From Tomocerus qinae (taxonomy: Eukaryota > Arthropoda > Collembola > Entomobryomorpha > Tomoceridae), in NCBI GenBank assembly GCA_020055645.1, contig CM034547.1, positions 34,354,909-34,418,908 of the forward strand: DNA of 64,000 nt, read 5' to 3'. This document shows positions 3,701-18,392 of this stretch, in pieces. Position numbers and translations under genes: made by a program. The notes under the pieces are model-generated. The model was not told the DNA's origin, searched no databases, and saw only the letters and a program-made list of their open reading frames with translations. Numbering within the stretch: the first letter of the stretch is position 1; every line of letters starts with the position of its first letter.

Positions 3701-6700
3701 GAGCTTTGCAGATGCATATATAAGATTGGCTAGGAAGTGCAACGTCAATCACAGTTGAGACTCTCCGATGGGACGCATCTATTTGGGGCAGGCCAGCTGT
3801 AAACTATAAAGTATACAAGTGTAGGCAGCCTCCTACTAACAGTATAGCTAGCAGTCACTACCAGTCAGTCTGACTAGTTAGACAAAGTAAAACTGCTTTG
3901 CTGTAGTTTTCTTGGGCCAAGGCGGACGCTCAATGCTTTTCCCTCTCGACTTGATTTTGGTAAGTTGTGTGTGAGAGAGAGAATAAGGGCTCGGAAAGGT
4001 TTAGTTCAGCTTCCTCATCTGATGATCACTTTGTAGGAGCAGAGTAGTACAGATAACACTTATGTATATATGCAGCCTCTATGTTACAATTCAGATCCAA
4101 GTTTCTCTTTCTCCAATAAGTAAGTACCTAGTGCCTACTTTGTTAGATTTAGACGAAGAGAGCTTTTCCTCGGACGAGACGAAAGGAAGAGATTCTGGAT
4201 GGTCTGGTGATGCTGTGCTGATGTTGATACTAAAATAGAAGATGGTTGTGAGTCGAATGTATTGCTCCGCATCGATTGTATTATCCTGGGATTTACTAGT
4301 TTTTTTAGACGAGCTCTACTGCTTTAGTTCACCTAATCACTTGGATTTTCATGCGATTCTGTCCGAGCTGAGCTGTGTCTTCACGTAAGTTAACTAGAGT
4401 TAAAGTTGAATTTAGTTCCATTTCGAGTATTTGCAGAATGTACATAAGAATAGGTAAGTAAGAAGACTAAGGCTCACTCACAATCACTCGACGGTTGGTT
4501 TTCATCTAGTCAGTCATTCGTTTTATTGGCTCTTCTCCTTATCCCTGATGTTTTTCTAGAGCAGTCCTTAAATGAAAAGGAATCGACGCTGATGGATAAA
4601 AAGTCAAAGGCGCTTGAGCTGAATGACGTTAGGGGAGGACAGAAGAAAAAATTCATTGAATTCAATGTCTGTTTTACTGCTTCGCCTTAATATGTGTTTT
4701 CGTTTTCGGTTAACATCGCGGTTTATTTTCTCAACGAGACCTTCCTCCTTTTGTCGGTCTTTTTGCAAGCGAGATAGAGTGACTATACTCCACTTAACTT
4801 ATAGGTAAATGTATTTACACAGGAAAGATACTTGTATAATAGATATAGAGTGCATAGATAGACAAGACGAAGTTGTATTGAATGACCTGCCTGAGTGAGC
4901 ACGAGAAAAATTCCTCCAATGGAAGTAAGTAGGGAGTTGGAACGTACCTATATTGAATTGGAGATAATGTAACGTAAGATATTGCAACAAGAGTAGTTTG
5001 TTGCACCCATTTGTTACCTTAATTGCCTACCTACATTAACCAGGTTGTATTCTACACTCTACACATAACTCCAGTACACATTAATACTCACTTAGAAAAG
5101 GATGTTGCCTTTCTCCTTCGTTAATGCATTTACAAGTAGAGCTTGAGTTTTATGGAGTCAGTCAGATCAGGGCGGCTGCTATGTTTGCCATAACTTGGTT
5201 GGCCATCGTCGCGGAATCTATGGGTGGGCTAGTATTGCTCCATTCCTTAGGTATGTGCCAGTACCACTCTCTTTTATCTCCTCTCCTTTCAGTCAGAATT
5301 ATATTTATAAGACTGCATAAAAGTTAATATTAGTAGCTCTACATCTACACCTACAGATATGCAATGTGGCAATACATTAGCAATGTGAGATACAGTAGAG
5401 TTTTATCTGTACGTAGTTACATTACAACATTCGTAAGGAAGTATCCACACACTGAACTAGTTAGTATACATTTCAAAGCAGTAAAAGCCTTGTTTTGTAT
5501 CTACTAGCCTCATTTTGTCCAGAGCTTAGTTTATTTACTTTGTAAGTGTTGGCTGAGGATTTACTGGAATGTTTGTAGACTGAGGGCAAAGCAGAAAGAC
5601 ACTACAACGGCGCTCTGCCCTACTAGTGCTGAAAGAGTGTGGGATAGAAAAGTTCCATGTACACGAACAGAACTAGCACTACAGTAAAACGAGATGCTCA
5701 AAGATTTTCGATTTTTATGCTACACAACACAAGTCTCAGTAAATATGAATCTAGTGTTTAAGTTACTCCTTTGTCCCTCTCACCAGAACAGACAAGAGGT
5801 TTTTGACCGGCTTAAAATGTGTAGGGCGAGAGGATTTACTAGATTGTGGTCTTTCTCCTCTGGATAAAGTATTCTGCTCTTGCTTTCTTCTTGCCTCTAG
5901 TGGCAAAAGTGTTAAAATAATTAAAATGTCTCAGGATAGGTTTCTTTGCTGCGTCTGCTCTGTTTTTTCTTGTTTTGTGTATCACGAAGTCACTGGTGAA
6001 TTCGTTTAATCCATTGTTTACATTTTTTATTGTCGACTCTGCTATAAATATGTACTCTGGTGCATATTAAATGTAAGTGTATGTATACATAACTTGCTAT
6101 GCTGTTTTTCCACTCCACGTCTCATGCACATGCACTTTATTATGTACTGATGGGACTAGGCTTCGTTTTTATGTATAATATAATACTAGTTCATATGTAC
6201 ATGCACAAAATTTACATATACATACTAAACTTATTTGAGCAGCTGAGTTGAGTAGGTAGATGTACAAGCACAGTATCTGAATGTCTACATTTGTATTTTC
6301 TTGTACTCTTGTCGTGTCGTCGTCGTCTTTCTACCGAATCGACAGATGTAATTTTCACAAAGTTAAGGAAGTGAAAGTTAAATTCCTTGTGTAAGTAAAT
6401 ATGTACTAGCTGATGTTGCACAATCTTAAGCGAATAAGGGAACCCGTCGCTCGCTGTTAATGAAATTTAAATTTAGTTCTGGCAGAATGTTTCAGCATAG
6501 CGTATTAATCAACCTGCCTAGTAAAGAGACTTACTGATTGGTAGTGTAGCGAAATGAAAGTATCAGCATAAGTACCAACGTTTACGTTAGCTTTAGCATC
6601 ATTCTTCCTCTTCGCTTCCCTTTTACTGTGCTTGTTTCACTACTGCACAGTCAGCCAGAGTTTGACTGGACATTTCAGTACTGGCGTAACTCGATTGACT

Positions 6701-9700
6701 TAATTTAAGACTTTGTGAATACTGATGAGATGAGATGGAGATGAGGCGACTGAATCGTCAGCTTTGTGCTTTATATGTTTAAGGAGACTGCACGCCCCAA
6801 GTCTTCAGGGAATACATACGAAACGTACCTTGTGTGTATTTACCCCATAGTATTACCACTTGGGTGGTTTATTTTATAGTGTATCGTTAGTAAGTACCTA
6901 TACCTATTAACTTTGCAAGCATTTTATCCTGTTTAAGTGATTTCCTTTCCTCTGTAATCGGGCTTTCAAATTCGTACTAACGACAAGCAGGATTGAATTT
7001 ACGCCTATTCTCTGATTAGTTCGCAGAATAAATTGTAGAGCTCCTCGGAGAAGGAAAAATAAAAGCTATTTATTTGCGTAAATACCGTTCTAACTGTTGT
7101 GATGCTCTCGTTAATGGAATGTCGATACACAGGAAATGGAAGAGGCTGTAAATATAAATAAATACCTCGCTGTTCTTGTCTTGGTACTACTAAACGAGAT
7201 TAATCAGCCAGAAGCTGTAGATGTCGTTCTCATTGTTATCATAGTTCAGTCACCCCAGACCAAAGTTAAATGCTCTGCCTTGTAATTTAATTTCTGTAAG
7301 TGTATAGCAAAATATTATGATATATATAATCGATACCATTAAGGAACTATTATGTAATTCTTGCTAACAAGAATTTGAACTACAAAGGGTCCTAGGTACA
7401 TTATTTAGACAAAAAGTAGAAAATAAAAGGAAAATTACGTACACTATAAGAGGACAAGAATGGGGAGTGATGTTAATGTAAAGTACAAAGGAGTGAAGGT
7501 AAGGTTGCTACGTTGCATCCGTGCATCGTCGCCTTCATCATCATCATCATCATTTTTTAGAATGATTCATTTGTGCCGAGGAGCGGAATGGGAAAGCAAA
7601 AAAGAAAGTATACCGCATACAGTAAAGAGGAGCGGAAAGAACAATGGGAAGTGCCAGGAGAGAGTAGCCGTTTCTTTTGAGGTAGTTTTCCTATCTTCTT
7701 ATTTGCAATCCTTGTCTAGTAGAGCACTAACTACTACATACATGTGTAGGTATATTATAAGGTATATTTATGAACATTGTACTATGAAAACACTACGGTT
7801 ACTAAAGTCGGTTGGGGCAGTGTAAGATGAAAGTACGTACGATTGTAACCTATATATAGGTTACTATTTATACTTATACATCAGTAGAAGTAAAGAATGA
7901 ACATTAAATAAAGTGAAACATGGTGGTTGTATTTTGTAGTACTGGCTACTAAAGGAGTCCAATAAAGTAGCAGAGCAGTGTAGACAGTGGTGTAAAATTT
8001 AGAGAAGGAGAGTGAAGAGGCGTGTATAGTCTGAAGGAAAAGGAAATAATACATCGGGCGGGCGGTTTTCTTGGTGCTATATTGTGTGAATCTGAAACGT
8101 TTTGTCTTCCTAGTTCACGGTGGATGCTTTTGTGCTGCTGGAAAGCTTGAGACGAAATCCATTTCCTTTTGCCTATCATCACTATGTATATAGGTAGCAC
8201 ATGAAATTCAGAGCATTCTGTCCCTGCATTTAAGTATATAGACTTTGTTACTGCTTACCCACTCTGTTACACTGTTATTGTTGTTGGCTTTGCTATATTA
8301 TATGTGCTTTAAAGTGAGTATACCTCAAGCGGACATTTCATCCTACAAAATGAATATTGGGGTATAGAAGATTGACGTTAGGGTTTTATGTGCCTGCATA
8401 TAATATACATACTAGGAACACCTATATTGCGTAGGTGTTATGTCAATACGTACCTGCGTATGTTATTTTATCAGTGTAAGTATAAGTTTGTAAGAGTGTA
8501 CATACGTACATATGGATTAGTAGGGAAGGGAACGGAAGACATAGACGAAAAGAAAATAAAGTGCAGAAGATGCAATGAAGAAGAAGTAGGAAAAGGTCTC
8601 ATTTCGGTCACACTTAGATGGAGACCGTATATTTCCTGTTGGTGATCCTCATGTGTGTTATGTACTAGTGTTGATGTTGGCTGTTAGGGGATGGAATGAA
8701 AGTGGAATCTTCATCCTCAATCTCCTCTCATTTCCTATACAATGCTTAATGTAGTTCTGCCTTGGAAGAGTGCTAATACAGTATTATAATGTATAGATGT
8801 TGTAAGTTAGTATTATACGTGTAGATACCTAGTTATTTATATATACGTATGTCCCCTCGATGCACATATAGTGCACTTTGCACGTTTAGTCAAATTCATA
8901 TAGAGTGAGCGTCTATGTGTTGTGCTTCACACTTCACACTACTCACTATATAGATTTACGTAGTCAGCAGTGGTGTGAATGTTGTATGTAAAGCAATTTA
9001 GTAGTAATGTGGTTGGTTGAGTAAGTGCAGTATCCTTATATATCGTAATATTATATACATGTTAGATAATGTATAGATATACGCAAGGCATTATATAGGG
9101 AATGACTGAAGACAGTTGGCAATGGGATGCAACCGACTTTTCCCACACTTAGGCCAAAGACGTTTTGAGAGTTTAGCTAAAGCACTGCTATGCTTAATAG
9201 TGTTCTATATGTATCCTTTAACGTGACTAAGCCACGTCTACAATATTATGTAAGGATGAAGACCAAAAGGAGCATAGTATAGTATTGGTGACTGACTGAG
9301 GTCCTATGTAAACGTATTTGTTGCACCGAGTGAAGAGACGGGATGGGCTACTATAAGATAGTGAAAAGGCTATTAGAGCTGAAGTGCTTTATTCTTGGTG
9401 GTTATGGTGAAAATAAGAGGATCAAGTACTACGTGGTCTTTAAATGTAGAGTCGATTCTTAAGTATTGTCGTTGAAATGAATGACAATATTGAGCTGATT
9501 GTGAGTTGTGGTTGTGAGTGGAGTGAAAGTTAAATTAACTTATGGTTGGCTTCCCTTGGTTGTTGACCTGAAATGTCATGAGTTTCCTTTGGATAAAATT
9601 TTTCGAGTTTGTGTACTATGCATAGAAGATGTTATATTGCTACTAAGTAGTACTAAGGGGTGGTTTGCTATGCTACTTGTTCAAAAGCTTTTATTAGGAA

Positions 9701-12107
9701 GAGTCACACAGTTAGTACCCACTACTGGAGTTGTTGGCTGAGAGCTTTCGTGGTCGTGGTTTATATCTGCGGTGAAAGTTCGGGACACGCATCTACGAAA
9801 GGATCAGCTGGTGAAAGTGCTAACGTTTCCAAGTATGATGACGCGCTCTTACTTAGCAGCGATAATAACCTGTCGCCTAAAGATGAGAAGTTTATTTCGG
9901 TAGCAGGAAGTGACAGTTTCGGTGCAAAAGCTTCCTTAGATTATACAAACACTTTAAGATTATGGAAGAAAGCTAACACCGCTCTAAGTTAGTAACGTTA
10001 TGTTCGTTACACTGAGAATGTCTCGTCATGGAAAACCAGCACTAGAGTGGGATTGAGAAGAGCAGGTTACCTTTTGGCTTTTGAGGTTTCTCCCAGACAC
10101 AACCCAACCAACCTTTCCCGTGACAAGATTTATTTTCTTCCTTTGGTCAGGATTGCATGGGGTTGGATACACACGCACTTAAAGAGACGCAGCAAGGCAA
10201 ACGCATACTGCAACGAATTGTTTTGCGTGCTTAGGGATTTATGGCACTTGGACTTGGATTCTTGTCTGGCAATAGAGGACCATGAAGTTCTAGTGTCTAT
10301 GTGTATTGCTTACCATTGAGCGTCCGATGGGAAGAGACACAATGACAAGGAGCGAGAGTTCATATACTTAATAGTCAAAGTGCTGTAAATGTAATGTAAT
10401 GGAGAAGAATAAGTGGTGACCTTAAGTGTCAGGAGAGCAATCATATTATCGGTATATACGTAATTGTTTCCATACTGACCAAACATAAAATGAGGTACCT
10501 AACCTACTCGTTGGATCCTTTATACATCTATGTGGATTTGAAGAGAATAGGAAGTGTAAGCTCGTTTTGAAACTGGCACTTAAGGCGATACGTTGCGATG
10601 GTCGAACGAAGAACCTCAATTTCATTTGGGTGATGGCATCACACTCACGGGTCATTTGCCACCCCTGAAAGAAAATGATGTAGACTTGTCTGGAACTTGA
10701 TTTATTGTATTACACGTAGCGATTTCTTTCTGCCCTGACGAAATACTCTTCCAAGTTATAGTTATTGCCTGGCTCTATCTAATACCGTTCCTAATACTAG
10801 TACTACATGGGGTTACATACATCGGTAATGTATAGTATGTGTCTAGAATTTGCACTGCTTGTGTCTATGTAGAATGTGAAATGGAAGACTTAATATAAGC
10901 AAGAGAATTGCTCTCATAGTGCATCCCCGTCCTACATAATGTCTTTTATTATAGATGTGTTTGTAGTAATGCCAATATAAATTTATTGCAGCTTCCTCCA
11001 ATCTGTACGTAACAATTTTACTCATTTTTCTACAATGTTCGTACATAGCGTACGTGTGTCTGTTGTCGTAGAAGGTAACAAGATTAACTCGATCCTCTCT
11101 TTGCCAGAGGAAACTCCTTGATTTTTACGTTTTCTGCCAAATAAGAAATTAAAATTCTCACAGAACGCAACATTATTATTGCAAAAGACAGTTAGAATTT
11201 ATAGAACCGTGCCCTCCAGCCAAGAAGAAACTCTTAAGAGGTTTTAGATTGGAAATGTAATGCATTAGGAGCATAGACACAGACTACTAGATGTTTCTTA
11301 TACGTTACGTACTTAGTTTCTTTCCGCAGAAACACAAAATATTAGCAGCACGCTGCCCTATTTTTTCTTGGCGTATATGGTTTTCTGTGCTTGTGTGAGC
11401 AAGAAGAATTTATACACTGAAGCAGTAAGTAGTTTCCCTGTTAGCTAAGTTTGGTAATGTTATTTTTCTATTATTTCTGTATCGTTTTCTTTTCTGGAGG
11501 CAGGGAAATAGTATAAATACAAATATTGCTGCAATGTACATCTGCAAGTGTCAGACAGTCGAATTGAAGTTCGAGAGAGAAATTAATATAGAGCGAGGGA
11601 AGAGGAAGGGGCTTAAGTTGGAATCTAGGAATAGAAATCGATTAAATGAAGTATTGTAAGGAACTCGTTCGAGTGTGGCGAAGGCTTATGATTTCAAAAA
11701 GAAGAAATGTTTGGAACGAGGACAAATGTAATATAGTACTAGGATAGAAATGGAAGTGTAGTCATGTTGAATGCGATGTTATGTAGGAATGCAATAGACT
11801 GAGACAAGTTCAGGGCAATACTTACTAATAGTATTACTTAGCTCTATGTTCCTTGTTATAGTACATCCCTACTACTTACACTACTACCCAACTTTAGTTG
11901 CAGCACCATACGGTTCCTGTTCGGTTCTGTGCAGTGCAGTGGTTAGTAAAAGTACTATCTGCCAAGAAGTAATATAATGTGAAGAGAAATAGTAACAACA
12001 ATACGGAACGAAAGAGGAAGTGAAGCAGAGATGCAATATTAGATGTGTTTGCAACGTAATGCGGTCCTGGCTTGGTAGCAACGAAATATCTTTAGTATCT
12101 GTCTCTA
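739..12107. other. Intronic or 5' flanking DNA, no gene seen
   Basis: AT-rich DNA before the first visible furin exon, presumed to be furin intron because no prodomain or signal-peptide exon was found. I see no conserved reading frame, RNA gene or transposon end. It holds a TCA microsatellite near 7535 and the unusual but unassigned open stretch near 9740-9992. Short open frames here have no recognisable domains and look like chance. Confidence 0.6.
7535..7553. repeat. TCA trinucleotide microsatellite
   Basis: About six uninterrupted TCA units followed by a T run. No sign of function. Confidence 0.8.
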
Positions 12108-12130
12108 CCCTTACAAAAATATTCCACTAT
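12108..12130 (+). repeat. Left terminal inverted repeat of the EnSpm element
   Basis: 23 bases identical to the reverse complement of 17615-17637, preceded by target duplication TA. Confidence 0.9.
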
Positions 12131-12528
12131 ACATTCTAACTGGCAATAGTGGGAATTTTTGACCAAAATCTTGCCATAGGTAACCAAAACTTAACCACAT
12201 TCTTATCACTTCAAACTAAATTTCAATTCAAATTTGGTGAAACACAGCTCACAATTTTGATGGACACCAACTGAATATCTACTACTGAGCAATTAAATAT
12301 TAGTCATTTTCAATACAAAGACTTACTAATTATAGCTAAATGATAGTATGATAATAATGAGATTCAGTGTGCTTATTGGACAGTATCCACTGCAATACAA
12401 TTAAGAAAATGAATTTTAACTAACGTATGAAGATATATTGTGCCATTAAGCCATAACAAAACTAACAATTAGTATTTAATGTTCTTGGTGCATTAAAATA
12501 GATGAGTTGATTATAAACAACATAAACA

Positions 12529-12534
12529 TTTATT
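12529..12534 (-). terminator. Likely polyadenylation signal of the BEN-domain gene
   Basis: AATAAA on the - strand, 87 bases after the TAA stop of the BEN-domain gene. Position and motif fit cleavage and polyadenylation. Confidence 0.5.
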
Positions 12535-12620
12535 TTGCGCCTAAACACCATACACATTGATAAAGGGACTCAAAATACTAAATTTTATGCCAGCAGGTTC
12601 ATCTTAACAAATGGTCAAAG

Positions 12621-14101
12621 TTAATTCTTTGCACAGCTGTAGCATTTTTGCTTAACCGCAGCCTTAAGATGCGCCGTGTTAAGCATCTGCATTGATTTTG
12701 TTTTCTTGCAAAAAAAGGTCATATTTCCAGAGTTCAATGAGTTGTATTTCTGCATAACATGGCCTGCAACATAAATAAATTTTAGAATATGGCACCTTAG
12801 TATTGGCTTTCTGTTAAATGATTGACTTAGTTGTGACTTACTCATAATAGTCGCAAGAGGTCCACCGGGTAAAGCTGGTTTTGGTATTTGACCATCTACT
12901 TTAGTTGGGCATTTATTGCCAGAAAGGCTGTGGGTTGATAAAACTTCCCGACCAAAGAAGCACAGGGAAAGCTCCTTTACGGCAGATATCGGATCAGCAA
13001 AGTTTATTAAAGAATACTCCAGCTGCTTAACTTTTACATCATTGGAAAGAAACACCTGCAAATGTCACAATATATCGATGTAGAAAAGCTTAAAATACAC
13101 CTAATCATTAAATTACCATATCTTGTTCCCCATTATTCACGATGCGAAGAGCATTAGGATGGGCAGCTTTCAAAATGGACAATATTTCTTCGACTTTGCT
13201 TGCAACACCGTGATCACCTACAAATTATTTTTCATTTGTTAACATTAATATGTGAAAGTTAGTAAGATATAACATGACACAAAACACCTTTACCATTTTC
13301 AATAGTCTGATTATTTTGTTGCAAGCTTAGTTTGAGGCTTTCACCTCCCTTTCTTTATCCGCCAATTTTCTTTTCAAAGTGTTGAGTTCAGACCTCAGAC
13401 TAGACTCAGACTCTGGAAACATGTGCTTGTGTTAAATCTGGAGATAAATTGTCCAAGACGCGATTAGTGTTTTTAGTCCTGGTGGCCTGCAAATAAAATT
13501 TATATTATTATGTACGACAACATTTTAAATATAATTAGTATCACGTTCTGTACATTTACCTTTAATAACAACTTTCGACCAGATGTTCCCGCAACTTTCA
13601 ATGGATTTTTCTTAATAGTTTTTCTGCTCTTAGGTTTTTTAATGCCACTTGCCTGACTTTTCCCAGGCTGCAATTCAAAATGACAAAAAAATTACTTTCA
13701 GAGGATTATTTATTTAACTTTTGATATAAAACAGACTGCAATATTACGGTATTAATCTCAGATGTGTTTTCTATGTCATCGTCACTTTCAAGGAGTAAAA
13801 GTTCCTCTCTTCTAGCTTTCAGTTCTTTTAATGCACCTAAGAAATCATTATTTCTTTTAATGATCGTGGACATAAATAATGTTTATACTAAACAATACAG
13901 TAGAGTTAAATTAAAAAATGATCAACTATGTTTGTTTTGCTTACCGATATTTAGTATTTTTACGACGCAGTCGTCATCTCCAATGTCGACATAACTCCCA
14001 ACAGCAGGTGGTTTTTTAACATTAAAACTGTTTATATCCGCAACAGTAATAATTTTGTATTTATCACTGCCACTGACGCCTATTTCTTCCACCAAATACA
14101 T
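12621..14101 (-). pseudogene. BEN-domain protein gene carried by the transposon (seven exons, frame-damaged)
   Basis: Exons on the - strand: 14101-13945, 13836-13748, 13667-13560, 13486-13294, 13217-13117, 13055-12842 and 12763-12621. All have GT/AG junctions and matching phases. The N-terminus (MYLVEEIG, ending near KILNIG) resembles the small tudor/SH3-like module found before BEN domains in many arthropod proteins. Next come an acidic/basic linker (LESDDDIEN; KKPKSRKTIKK), a coiled coil (LNTLKRKLADKE), and a BEN domain from about ALRIVNNG through VKELSLCFFGREVLSTHSLS to LKAAVKQKC at the end. BEN domains bind DNA and act in chromatin regulation. Exon 4 is broken: a one-base shift near 13420 and a compensating shift near 13345 leave stops between them. 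I chose the ATG at 14101 because an upstream one at 14218 runs into a TGA at 14125-14123. BEN identity is strong; the N-terminal module is tentative. Confidence 0.8.
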
Positions 14102-14662
14102 ATTAACTGTTTCTGTAAATCCTCAAGCAGCGGAGAAATTACAAAAATTTTCAGGTTTGAGGTTGCAACGAGTGGAGAGACGAAAAGACATCAAATGTTT
14201 GAAATCAATCGTTTTCATGATTGTTTTACTATTTTTCAGTTGTCTTGGAATCATTGACATCTAAATATCATTGGCTGTCACGAAAGTGTGTATTTTAAAT
14301 ACTATTAAGTGGACCATTCTCCATAATTACCAAACTTTATAAATATGCTTCTTAATGATATCCGATACCCAACGTCTTATACAACACATAAACTAAATTA
14401 CACTTTAATCTCATTTGATATTGAATTGAAAATATCAATTAGACATCTTCAAGTCAATGCGTTTTTGATTGGAACAACTTTGAAGATTTTAAAGTAAAGA
14501 AAAAGTTTCTTAAATCCCAGGAACGAAAGCCTTAATATTACAAACTTACCACCAAAATTATCAGAAACCAAATCTTCCACTTTCCTTTGGCTTGCAATTC
14601 ACTTCATTTGCGAAAATAATTCTTTAATAAGCATATAAAATTTGAAACATAATTTAACAAAA
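14102..14662. promoter_or_regulatory. Divergent promoter region between the two transposon genes
   Basis: About 560 bases separate the start codons of the BEN-domain gene (-) and the transposase gene (+), so promoters for both must lie here or in unseen 5' exons. TATAAAG occurs on the - strand near 14341-14335. TATAAAA occurs on the + strand at 14634-14640, but only about 20 bases before the transposase ATG, which is too close for an ordinary TATA box with a leader. The role is inferred from layout. Confidence 0.4.
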
Positions 14663-17234
14663 ATGGGTAAATGTGTCAGAAGAAATGTCATTCGGAAGCT
14701 TATTCGAAGATTTCCTGAATTTAAATGTCGCAGAGTAAGTTTATTGCATTGATAAATATCGATTATTATGACATAGGTAATTAAGGGAGTTAGTATTAAA
14801 ATTCTGATGATTTATAAATAGGGCAATGGGCATATCGGTTATTTCCAGTATTTGTGTGGCAGTGAAACATTAGCGGTGAATGAAGTAGAAGAAAATGTCA
14901 CAATGGACGAAGGATTTAATCCTCTTCTACATGATGACACTCGGTCACCGGACAACTTAAATGATGAATTCGTAACTAAAAACTCTGAGAAAAATGTAAA
15001 AAACCAGTAAAATCTTGATAACTGTTATTGAATAACATACATAATATACGGTAAAGGTGACTAGATTTTATTTATGTAGGACTCTTTTTCACCCCTGTAT
15101 AATGGTTGTCCATTGGATGAAAAATCTGCTAAAGCTACAGTGCTAGCATTCATGCTTCGCTATAATTTACCGTTCAGCGCTATTGATAACCTAATTCTTC
15201 TAATCAATTCGTTTCTTCCAACTCCTGCCTTGAACCTGTCACAGTTTTTGTTTTTCAAAACTTTTAATGAAGCATTAAAGATCAGCAAGCATCACTTCTG
15301 TCACAACTGTAAAGGATATATAGGGGAAACTATAAAACTTCCATATCATTGCCGAGTAGAAGGATGTGGTTTTGTTAGGCAAACATCTGAAATGTACTTT
15401 GCAAGATTATCTTTAACCACCCAATTGGAGGGATTGTTTTCATCGAATTCTGAGCTCTTACAATGCTGTCTGTTATCCAAAACTCCGGGTTTCGAACATT
15501 GTACAGATATATATGGGGGCAGAAAATATCAGTCTTTGAATAATGTCTCCAATGATGAATTTATATCGCTAAACATATGTACGGATGGAGTCCAAGTTTT
15601 AAAGTCAGCAAAATATTCAATGTGGCCAGTTCAAATAACAATTAACGAATTTCCTCCTTCATTTCGGTTTAGAAACATTATACTGGCAGGAATCTGGTAT
15701 GGAGATGAAGGAATGCCCATCGACTCTTTGTTTTCGTTGTTGGTTGAAGAGCTAAATCATCTTTCAACGTTTGGTATCACTGTAACAGATGGAAATGAAG
15801 AACGAAATTTGAAGGTTTACTCCTTAGCATGCATTGCCGATTCGAAAGCAAAATGGGAAATACAAGGTCTCAAACAATACAACGGATACTTTGGATGCAC
15901 AACATGTTATGAAAACGGATACAGGTCCAAACTGAATAAAAGTACCAAAATGGTATTTCCATTTTCAAAACATCTACCTAAATTGAGAACAACCGATTCC
16001 TTTTTACAAGATCTGCTAACCTTTAGTACCAACGGACTAATAGAAGTTAAAGGATTGTGTTCAGTTTCTTCTCTAACTTTGCTAAAGAATTTCTGTACTG
16101 TTGAAAACTTCAGTATTGATTACATGCATAGCGTATTAATTGGAGTAGTGCAAAATATGATGACTATGTGGATGTCCCCAAAAAATCGTAGCCAGCCGTA
16201 CTCCCTTTAAGGAAAAGACAACGTTTTAACTGCTCGCATTCTATCGCTGACTCCACCATCTGTTATTACAAGGAGACCACAAAGTGTTTTCAAGAGGAAC
16301 TCTTGGAAAGCCCACCAGTGGCGAGACTGGTTGCTGTATTATGGTATTGTTGTACTTTCAGACACTTTGTCAGCACCCTACATGGAAAACTTTTTACGTT
16401 TAAGCCGCTCAATTTGGACACTTTTAAAAACAAAGATAGAAGCTGATGTCATCGACAGTACTGCTGAAGAATTAAAAATATTTGTTAAAGACTACCAAGA
16501 CCTTTATGGAATACATGAAATGAGTTACAACGTTCACCAGATTCTTCATTTAGCAGAAACTGTAAGAAAATTTGGACCTCTGTGGACTAACTCGTATGTT
16601 CCCATACGAAACGTATAACAAAGTCATTAAAGACTTTGTAAAAGGATATCGTCATTCCCAGACTCAAGTGTTAAAGAAATATGCCATGTTAAAATCTCTG
16701 CAATTTGATAATTTGGATTTACATACGAATGCCGTCGTTATAGACCGTATTTTAGATAAATATCCTGACTTAAAGAAAGTCTTAAGTGACGGATGCTCCA
16801 CTCTTAGATTAGGAAAATGCCAACCTTGTCAAATATGTATCAATGATAACGGCTTACTGGATCAAGTTGACAGAGAGTATAATTCTATTTTGCACAAAGG
16901 CATTCGACTTTGTACTGGAAATCATGATGAAAACAAACGATATACTAACAGTTATTGTGTCACCAAATGCAATTCCTTTGTAAAAATAATTGGCATATTT
17001 GAAAATTCTTTAAGTAGGATGTTTTATGTATTAGTTAATCTTTTGAGATCACACCCGTTTACATGTGGTAATATTATTATGGAACATGTTTTTGTTATTG
17101 AAGAAATAGAGTGTAGAAATGTTTGGTTACCGTTAAAAGATATTGACAATGTTGTTGTACGTATGAATGCAAACAATTATGCCAGCTACAAAGAAGTCGT
17201 TTGTGTTATTCCGAATAATGTTGAAATGGATTAA
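14663..17234 (+). pseudogene. EnSpm/CACTA-type transposase (three exons, one stop and one frameshift)
   Basis: Exons 14663-14734, 14822-14995 and 15080-17234, all phase 0, with donors GTAAGT and GTAAAA and tag/gtag acceptors. Exon 1 starts MGKCVRRN; exon 3 continues as DSFSPLYNGCPLDEKSAK, a conserved opening of animal EnSpm transposases. A zinc-ribbon-like Cys set follows (HFCHNC, then YHCRVEGCGF). Residue counts include all three exons: the first likely catalytic Asp is in NICTDGV (about residue 251) and the second in IADSKAKW (about 336), followed by the family signature LKQYNGYFGCTTC. FSIDYMHSVLIGV comes at about 428. After an in-frame TAA at 16208-16210 the same frame resumes with LTARILSL and WKAHQWRDWLLYY. 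A +1 shift near 16591-16600 separates FGPLW from FPYETYNKV. The C-terminus ends VIPNNVEMD. The protein would cut and join the element ends; this copy cannot make it in full unless the breaks are sequencing errors. Confidence 0.85.
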
Positions 17235-17614
17235 ATTAAGTTGATTCATATTGATTGCATTTAATTAATTTGCATTGACAGTTAATTCGGCCCTATTAGT
17301 TCTAGCATTGCATTTTAAGGTTTACTAACATGGGGGCAATCATATCATATCCATCAGAGTGACATCCACAAGGTGCAATGTTTCATCAATTTAATGTGAT
17401 ATTCAACCAAATCAGCTTACCAATTTTACTTGCTAATTCAGCTTAGTTTTCTACAACAATCTTGTAGCTGTTTCTCACCAAATTTACTTCCCACTAAATT
17501 CATGCTAGTATTTTGCTCTACTATTTATGCACGTTACTGTTGGCTACTAGAATGTAACTAAATATTTACTGGGCCAAAAATTTCTTACTGAATCCAGTTA
17601 AAAACTGAAAAGAA

Positions 17615-17637
17615 ATAGTGGAATATTTTTGTAAGGG
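17615..17637 (-). repeat. Right terminal inverted repeat of the EnSpm element
   Basis: 23 bases identical to the reverse complement of 12108-12130, followed by target duplication TA. Confidence 0.9.
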
Positions 17638-18392
17638 TACTTATGCATTCTCATACGCTAGCTACGGAAAATGCATATGAAAAGTCTAAACGCAAGCATT
17701 GCAGTATATTTTGTAATATAAATACCTTCGTATGTGACTAGGAGGAGAGTTAAATTTTGTATAAGATCTGCTGTGTATTTGTAAGTATAATAATGCGAGC
17801 AAGCAGTCATAATAGTTGGTTTCGTATCTCGGTATCTATTTTCTGTAGAAAGCGTAGTGAAAATGTGGTTGCTGTCGAGTTGTCGTCTTCATACGTTTTG
17901 TTAGCTGCTGCTGTTCTAAAGGACGTAGTGTACTTACGGCTGTTATTATTGTCGTAGCTAGCAAGAGCAAGGATGATGCCTTAAACAATGCATTCTGGGT
18001 TATATTACGTGTGTTAGCGTTAGTATTCTCCAAACTCTCATTTCCTTGGGTCTGGAGCAAAATAATCGGCAGTAGTTTAGTTGTAGAAGGCCCAATGTTC
18101 TGTATTGTGATGTAATGCGTCTCTACTCTCATAGTCTGCACTCCTGTTCCGTACATGTTACTACTTTACGTGCATAGTTGTGGGTTAGTTGTTTTTCGGC
18201 AGTTGTTATTATGTTGTCTAGTTAGTTTGACTAGAGTCTAGTCTGATCGTGAGCTCCCTGAGAATTTCCCCCAAACCTAACCAACTTTCTTTAACGGTAA
18301 GAAAGGAAAAGACGGGGCCTAGGAAAATTACACATTTATTCATACGGCCTATTAGGGAGTAGTGATACAAATGTCTTGCAAGATAGTTTGGT

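Follow-up and report, generated by a model that had tools for sequence, protein, structure and literature searches.

Plant En/Spm transposons have a CACTA core and a 3-base-pair (bp) target-site duplication, and their protein TnpA is not known to contain a BEN domain. The published accounts drawn on below are cited by PMC number and from partial text. In plants the products of tnpA and tnpD are both essential for transposition and come from one alternatively spliced unit, and in animals the TRC element SmTRC1 of Schistosoma mansoni combines a CCC core, a 2-bp duplication and a Transposase_21 transposase with additional proteins that arise by alternative splicing and have no detectable conservation (PMC1636069). 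Here we describe an element at positions 12108-17637 of a 64,000-nucleotide stretch of the genome of the collembolan Tomocerus qinae (contig CM034547.1, positions 34,354,909 to 34,418,908; hereafter the window), in which a transposase gene lies head to head with a gene for a BEN-domain protein. The element resembles SmTRC1 in core, duplication, transposase and the possession of an additional protein; unlike that of SmTRC1, its second gene is separate, with a recognised BEN or DUF4806 domain in most of the lineages compared below. With plant En/Spm it shares the presence of a transposase and a second protein, but these are encoded by separate genes, unlike in the single plant unit, and its CCC core and 2-bp duplication differ from the CACTA core and 3-bp duplication of the plant type. 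We consider it likely that the element, present here as an inactivated copy, is a young animal-type CACTA/EnSpm (TRC) transposon with CCC ends, the element-borne BEN gene of which is the counterpart of TnpA.

The initial annotation had placed the element at these coordinates and between 23-bp ends, and both proved exact: the ends begin with CCC, CCCTTACAAAAATATTCCACTAT on the left and its perfect inverse on the right, and are flanked by TA (Table 1). The divergent arrangement of the transposase and a seven-exon BEN gene within one pair of terminal repeats, also proposed there, was borne out by both gene models, the starts of which (BEN at 14101, transposase at 14663) are 562 bp apart. In what follows, family 1 is the window family, family 2 comprises L033 and L034, and Lnnn are locus labels. 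Transposase_21 was matched by the window element with E=7.1e-14 and 52 bits (Pfam cut-off 28.6) and by family 2 with E=8.7e-9, and the 2-bp duplication read from the flanks was TA in family 1 and TC in family 2. By its ends, duplication and transposase the window element is an animal CACTA (TRC) element (cf. PMC1636069).

A DNA search found the window family at seven places, comprising five near-full alignments, one split alignment (C4:8116972-8127327) and a remnant at C1:34666088. The exact 22-bp end pattern occurred 12 times in 334 Mb, as six pairs, and allowing 3 mismatches gave 6 further matches against 3 in a reversed control. All seven BEN exons were present in each of the six copies with paired ends; therefore the BEN gene is no one-off capture, a single-copy origin is rejected, and the window-family element carries it as a constant component. 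The chance that a host BEN gene merely came to lie between the ends of the window copy is thus negligible, since the six copies lie at six separate places and the second family carries a BEN gene too. Neither outcome that would have spoken against the pairing, copies lacking the BEN gene or a host gene captured once, was encountered: among 25 candidates scored with the window-family BEN protein, matches at E<=1 were the family's own copies and the remnant only, and a whole-genome search with the exact end pattern, which left the 3-mismatch matches unexamined, found no BEN-less derivative of families 1 and 2.

The BEN frame is open in L002, L003 and L004, whereas L005 has a stop in exon 2 and the stop codon of L006 is lost. 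Neither gene is intact in the window copy, its BEN exon 4 having two private 1-nucleotide indels with stops between them and its transposase an in-frame stop and a 1-nucleotide insertion, both private; the transposase exon 3 frame is open across 717 codons in L002 and L003. Between L002 and L005 the ratio of nonsynonymous to synonymous substitution rates (dN/dS) was 0.22 for the BEN gene (5 synonymous and 4 nonsynonymous changes, p=0.026, nine changes only) and 0.21 for the transposase (45 and 37 changes, p=7e-12). The other comparisons hold too few changes for use, both for the BEN gene (5-8 changes; window 0.27, L003 0.41, L004 0.68, L006 0.81) and for the transposase (L001 1.6 with 14 changes, L003 0.33 with 9, L004 0.40 with 10). 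Transposase ratios of L007, L008 and L009 against L002 (1.03, 0.76 and 0.66) were dropped, as these loci are partial and their global alignment entered unrelated DNA. L005 looks mosaic in comparison with L002, with about 99% identity in the BEN half and about 96% in the transposase half, as after recombination or gene conversion. L004 (C2:29630700-29639277) and L006/L007 (C4:8116972-8127327) are a net 3.0 kb and 4.8 kb longer than the window copy, probably through nested insertions.

The nearest other transposases, 35-36% identical to that of the window, are those of L033 (C1:53.39 Mb) and L034 (C3:26.60 Mb). The family-2 element is 5.2 kb long, has CCCGTATAGAAATTACC ends and TC duplications, and again carries divergent BEN and transposase genes, with the BEN frame and a 724-codon transposase frame open in both loci. 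Its exact ends occur four times in the genome, as two pairs, and with 3 mismatches there were 14 matches against 25 in the control. Between L033 and L034, dN/dS is 0.096 for the BEN gene (Fisher p=2e-7; 16 synonymous changes, 6 nonsynonymous) and 0.24 for the transposase (p=7e-5; 17 and 16); the family-2 BEN gene is under strong purifying selection. Purifying selection on the BEN gene, for which the initial annotation had proposed a test, is clear in family 2 and weak in family 1 (p=0.026). L033 interrupts the coding sequence of a gene that resembles, by eye, a polyketide or fatty-acid synthase (L033 3-1004 and 6136-7755), with TC doubled.

The second gene was modelled on copy L002, in which seven minus-strand exons joined by GT-AG introns encode a protein of 334 amino acids. 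The family-2 protein matched Pfam BEN with 33.4 bits (E=5.3e-8), one window exon matched it weakly (E=0.036), and the window-family protein alone reached Drosophila Insensitive with E=0.012. A profile with four rows, in which L002 and the family-2 protein were joined by the BEN loci L035 and L036, firmly matched the solved BEN domains of BEND6 (3.3e-10), Insensitive (2.7e-8) and Bsg25A (2e-7); these three are host genes, whereas the BEN gene of the element is transposon-borne. In the whole genome both matches to Pfam PF10523 (2/2) adjoin family-2 transposases, while the window family, L035 and L036 were missed.

Two transposase searches returned 69 and 67 matches, among which 14 lineages, grouped by eye, were examined: families 1 and 2; L037, L038, L039 and L046; and L040, L042, L043, L048, L051, L052, L053 and L050/L054. 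In all 14 the transposase is accompanied by another gene, whether BEN, DUF4806 or BEN-like in type, and in 12 this gene has sequence support if the BEN-like third type is counted. This third type is a divergent gene in L037, L038 (with L047), L039 (with L044 and L045) and L046, the cores of which are alike. It matched the BEN profile weakly (P=0.0011, probability 20%), and Pfam BEN matched one of four members at E=0.07, a value to be read beside the 0.075 of an unrelated family; its comparison with the DUF4806 profile was not significant, and its best match in the PDB had E=0.34, with no BEN protein among the matches. The second gene lies on the same strand as the transposase in L040, L042 (with L049), L043, L048, L051, L052, L053 (with L041) and L050/L054. 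It is upstream of the transposase in the first six of these; the upstream regions of L041 and L050 yielded none, and the gene was found downstream in L053 and L054 instead, L053 being another copy of L041's family (95% identical across 2.4 kb).

DUF4806 scored above the Pfam cut-off in L042 (1.1e-9), L043 (2.3e-5; 25.1 against 25 bits), L051 (9.9e-8) and L054 (5.2e-10) and below it in L040 (1.5e-4), and L048 was supported by tblastn. The weak cases are L052, matched only in its N-terminal and middle parts, and L053, which has no Pfam match and was judged by eye. The seven matches listed for DUF4806 (PF16064) in the whole genome all score below the 25-bit cut-off (19.6-19.9 bits, E 0.23-0.30), and each of the seven precedes an EnSpm transposase on its own strand, at a distance of 676-729 bp; as several of them are probably near copies, the independent events number fewer than seven. 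The DUF4806-type gene shows constraint: between L042 and L049 its dN/dS is 0.37 (p=0.015; 11 synonymous changes, 14 nonsynonymous), with no premature stop.

Both genes lie between CCC ends that are flanked by a matching 2-bp duplication in families 1 and 2, L037 and L038 (TA), L053 (GT), L050/L054 (AT), L043/L056 (TC) and L042/L055 (AT; 13 of 16 end bases matching). A search for end pairs found none for L039, nor for the left side of L041 combined with the right side of L053. In 2000 mononucleotide shuffles covering L053 and L050/L054 only, a pair matching at 15 of 16 bases arose at 0.0005 and 0.001 per trial, respectively, and never together with a duplication. The ends of the DUF4806-bearing family L043/L056 (L043 1360 to L056 660) open with CCCAGTCAAC, which is also the published 10-bp end of an Aedes aegypti TRC element (PMC1636069). 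A transposase tree of eleven rows and ten lineages (L046, L048, L051 and L052 being left out) separated the DUF4806 lineages from the divergent BEN and third-type lineages with 100/100 support; this split matches gene orientation, and thus the layout follows the transposase. From these sequence comparisons, a BEN-class protein looks like the usual partner gene of EnSpm elements in the Tomocerus qinae genome.

The gene structures, with junctions placed by eye, have features in common among the types of second gene. BEN, DUF4806 and third-type genes all have a phase-1 intron close to the C-terminal end of the BEN or DUF4806 domain (L002, L033, L035, L038, L039, L042, L043, L046 and L047; judged by the donor for L040 and L048; in L051 only when shifted). 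A phase-1 donor also closes exon 1 of L002, L033, L040, L042, L043 and L052, and possibly that of L048, four codons further on. DUF4806 is reported to be a subtype of BEN (Pan et al. 2023, cited in PMC11075544). A broader reading is that a BEN-superfamily protein, be it BEN, DUF4806 or the third type, is the ancestral general second gene of animal CACTA/EnSpm elements, equivalent to TnpA, and that host BEN and DUF4806 families are, at least in part, domesticated from it; we offer this tentatively, at somewhat less than an even chance.

Several results weigh against a common, element-borne origin of the BEN gene or against its assignment and role. The spliced L002 protein matched Pfam BEN (PF10523) with E=8.5e-4 and 19.9 bits, below the 23.2-bit cut-off, and two AlphaFold models were unusable, with a mean predicted local distance difference test score (pLDDT) of 38 for the BEN-fold model and 35 for the other. 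Profile comparisons were not significant between BEN and DUF4806 (P=0.15) or between the N-terminal domains (P=0.14). L035 and L036, found by protein search, have no transposase within their 8 kb, and the family-2 BEN is 47-53% identical to that of L035 and only 21% to that of the window; separate gains are therefore conceivable. In the window family, subterminal repeats did not exceed those of shuffled sequences (P 0.05 to 0.31 for 300-bp ends, 0.45 to 0.70 for 450-bp ends).

If CACTA elements tend to capture DNA-binding genes, families 1 and 2 might each have taken a host BEN gene, with DUF4806 of separate origin. The similarity of family 2 to the transposase-free L035 and the lack of a significant BEN-DUF4806 match agree with such captures, as does the window BEN, which is 21-22% identical to the family-2, L035 and L036 proteins alike. 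The divergent layout common to families 1 and 2 argues the other way, as does the report that DUF4806 is a BEN subtype; both BEN families and the DUF4806 genes also have matching phase-1 introns, one following the N-terminal exon and one preceding the last helix. The last-helix intron is also present in L035; it is therefore a trait of the gene family rather than one confined to transposons, and by itself does not decide the matter. Taking both sides together, we judge independent captures rather unlikely. At L035 a THAP domain (Pfam 4.8e-8) and, by eye, a BED-like finger lie upstream of the BEN exon pair (3741-6999, minus strand), and this locus may be either a host gene or an element gene that was domesticated. 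L036 encodes at 3910-4212 (minus strand) a BEN domain 34-39% identical to that of family 2.

As to function, a BEN-class protein probably does in these elements what TnpA does in plants, a role that rests on analogy and on the subterminal repeats of family 2. The 300-bp ends of family 2 contain 13 repeated 10-mers against 0.9 in shuffles (0/300), partly owing to one direct repeat of about 30 bp, whose copies have AATTGGCCCCTTTAMCRGTTGATA in common on the inverse strand; this repeat lies at the right end (L033 5840-6141), which also contains the TCAACAGAA motif. The commonest 9-mer, TCAACAGAA, occurs three times, with P=0.03 for ends of 300 bp and 0.09 for ends of 450 bp, which is weaker than the overall repeat excess. 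The element-borne protein would consist of an N-terminal domain, a likely coiled coil and a C-terminal BEN domain. It may bind sites near the element ends as an oligomer and help to join the ends for the transposase, and/or it may regulate the two-way promoter and chromatin of the element. The BEN domain of BANP, when oligomeric, selects unmethylated CpG (PMC11472053), a property that would suit TnpA-like self-regulation (PMC11472053, PMC1636069). The DBD1 domain of the Tn3 transposase, which reads inverted repeats, has a BEN-like fold (PMC9579193); this domain is bacterial and lies within the transposase itself, and the likeness noted here is one of fold.

The protein could instead act only on host chromatin or silencing and be kept as a shield of the element, with no part in end binding or transposition. 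BEN proteins are indeed described as chromatin-related, some of them selecting unmethylated CpG DNA (PMC11472053), and the window family has no significant subterminal repeats, whereas the ends of family 2 do. Even in very diverged elements the second gene is still found beside the transposase; a partner would be expected to remain there, but so would a shield. We regard this explanation as improbable and favour the TnpA-like role.

Table 1. Features of the window element (positions in the window).
Feature	Position	Strand	Basis or remark
Target-site duplication TA, left copy	12106..12107		Four copies show TA at either end
Left terminal inverted repeat, 23 bp, CCC core	12108..12130	+	Perfect inverse of 17615-17637
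BEN exon 7 (last BEN-domain helix, tail, stop)	12621..12763	-	L002 splice model mapped to the window
BEN exon 6 (most of BEN domain)	12842..13055	-	Pfam BEN on exon and spliced protein
BEN exon 5	13117..13217	-	GT-AG junctions
BEN exon 4 (likely coiled coil, by eye; pair of private 1-nucleotide indels)	13294..13486	-	L002 splice model
BEN exon 3	13560..13667	-	L002 splice model
BEN exon 2	13748..13836	-	L002 splice model; shifted by 2 for window indels
BEN exon 1 (N-terminal domain; phase-1 intron at end)	13945..14101	-	L002 splice model; shifted by 2 for window indels
Intergenic stretch between divergent genes, presumed two-way promoter	14102..14662		Position only; promoter role inferred
Transposase exon 1	14663..14734	+	Open frame, GT donor
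Transposase exon 2	14822..14995	+	GT-AG junctions
Transposase exon 3 (Transposase_21)	15080..17234	+	Private stop at 16208, private 1-nucleotide insertion at 16594
Right terminal inverted repeat	17615..17637	-	Inverse of left end
Target-site duplication TA, right copy	17638..17639		Flanking sequence

The element type itself is already known as TRC, and the identity of the second gene is the part for which no published description was found. The pairing of a BEN gene with an EnSpm transposase, observed here within one genome, was not described in the literature searched (Repbase, Dfam and subscription papers lay outside the search), nor in the partial texts of PMC5704228, PMC11075544, PMC7642931, PMC13270666, PMC4574769 and PMC9579193. 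If our reading is true, the BEN fold would have been put to use more than once to recognise the ends of transposons, the Tn3 transposase being the other case. With a BEN-class DNA-binding protein as the partner, the two-protein logic known from plant En/Spm could be tested in animals, and there would be a concrete hypothesis for the origin of the BEN and DUF4806 chromatin regulators.

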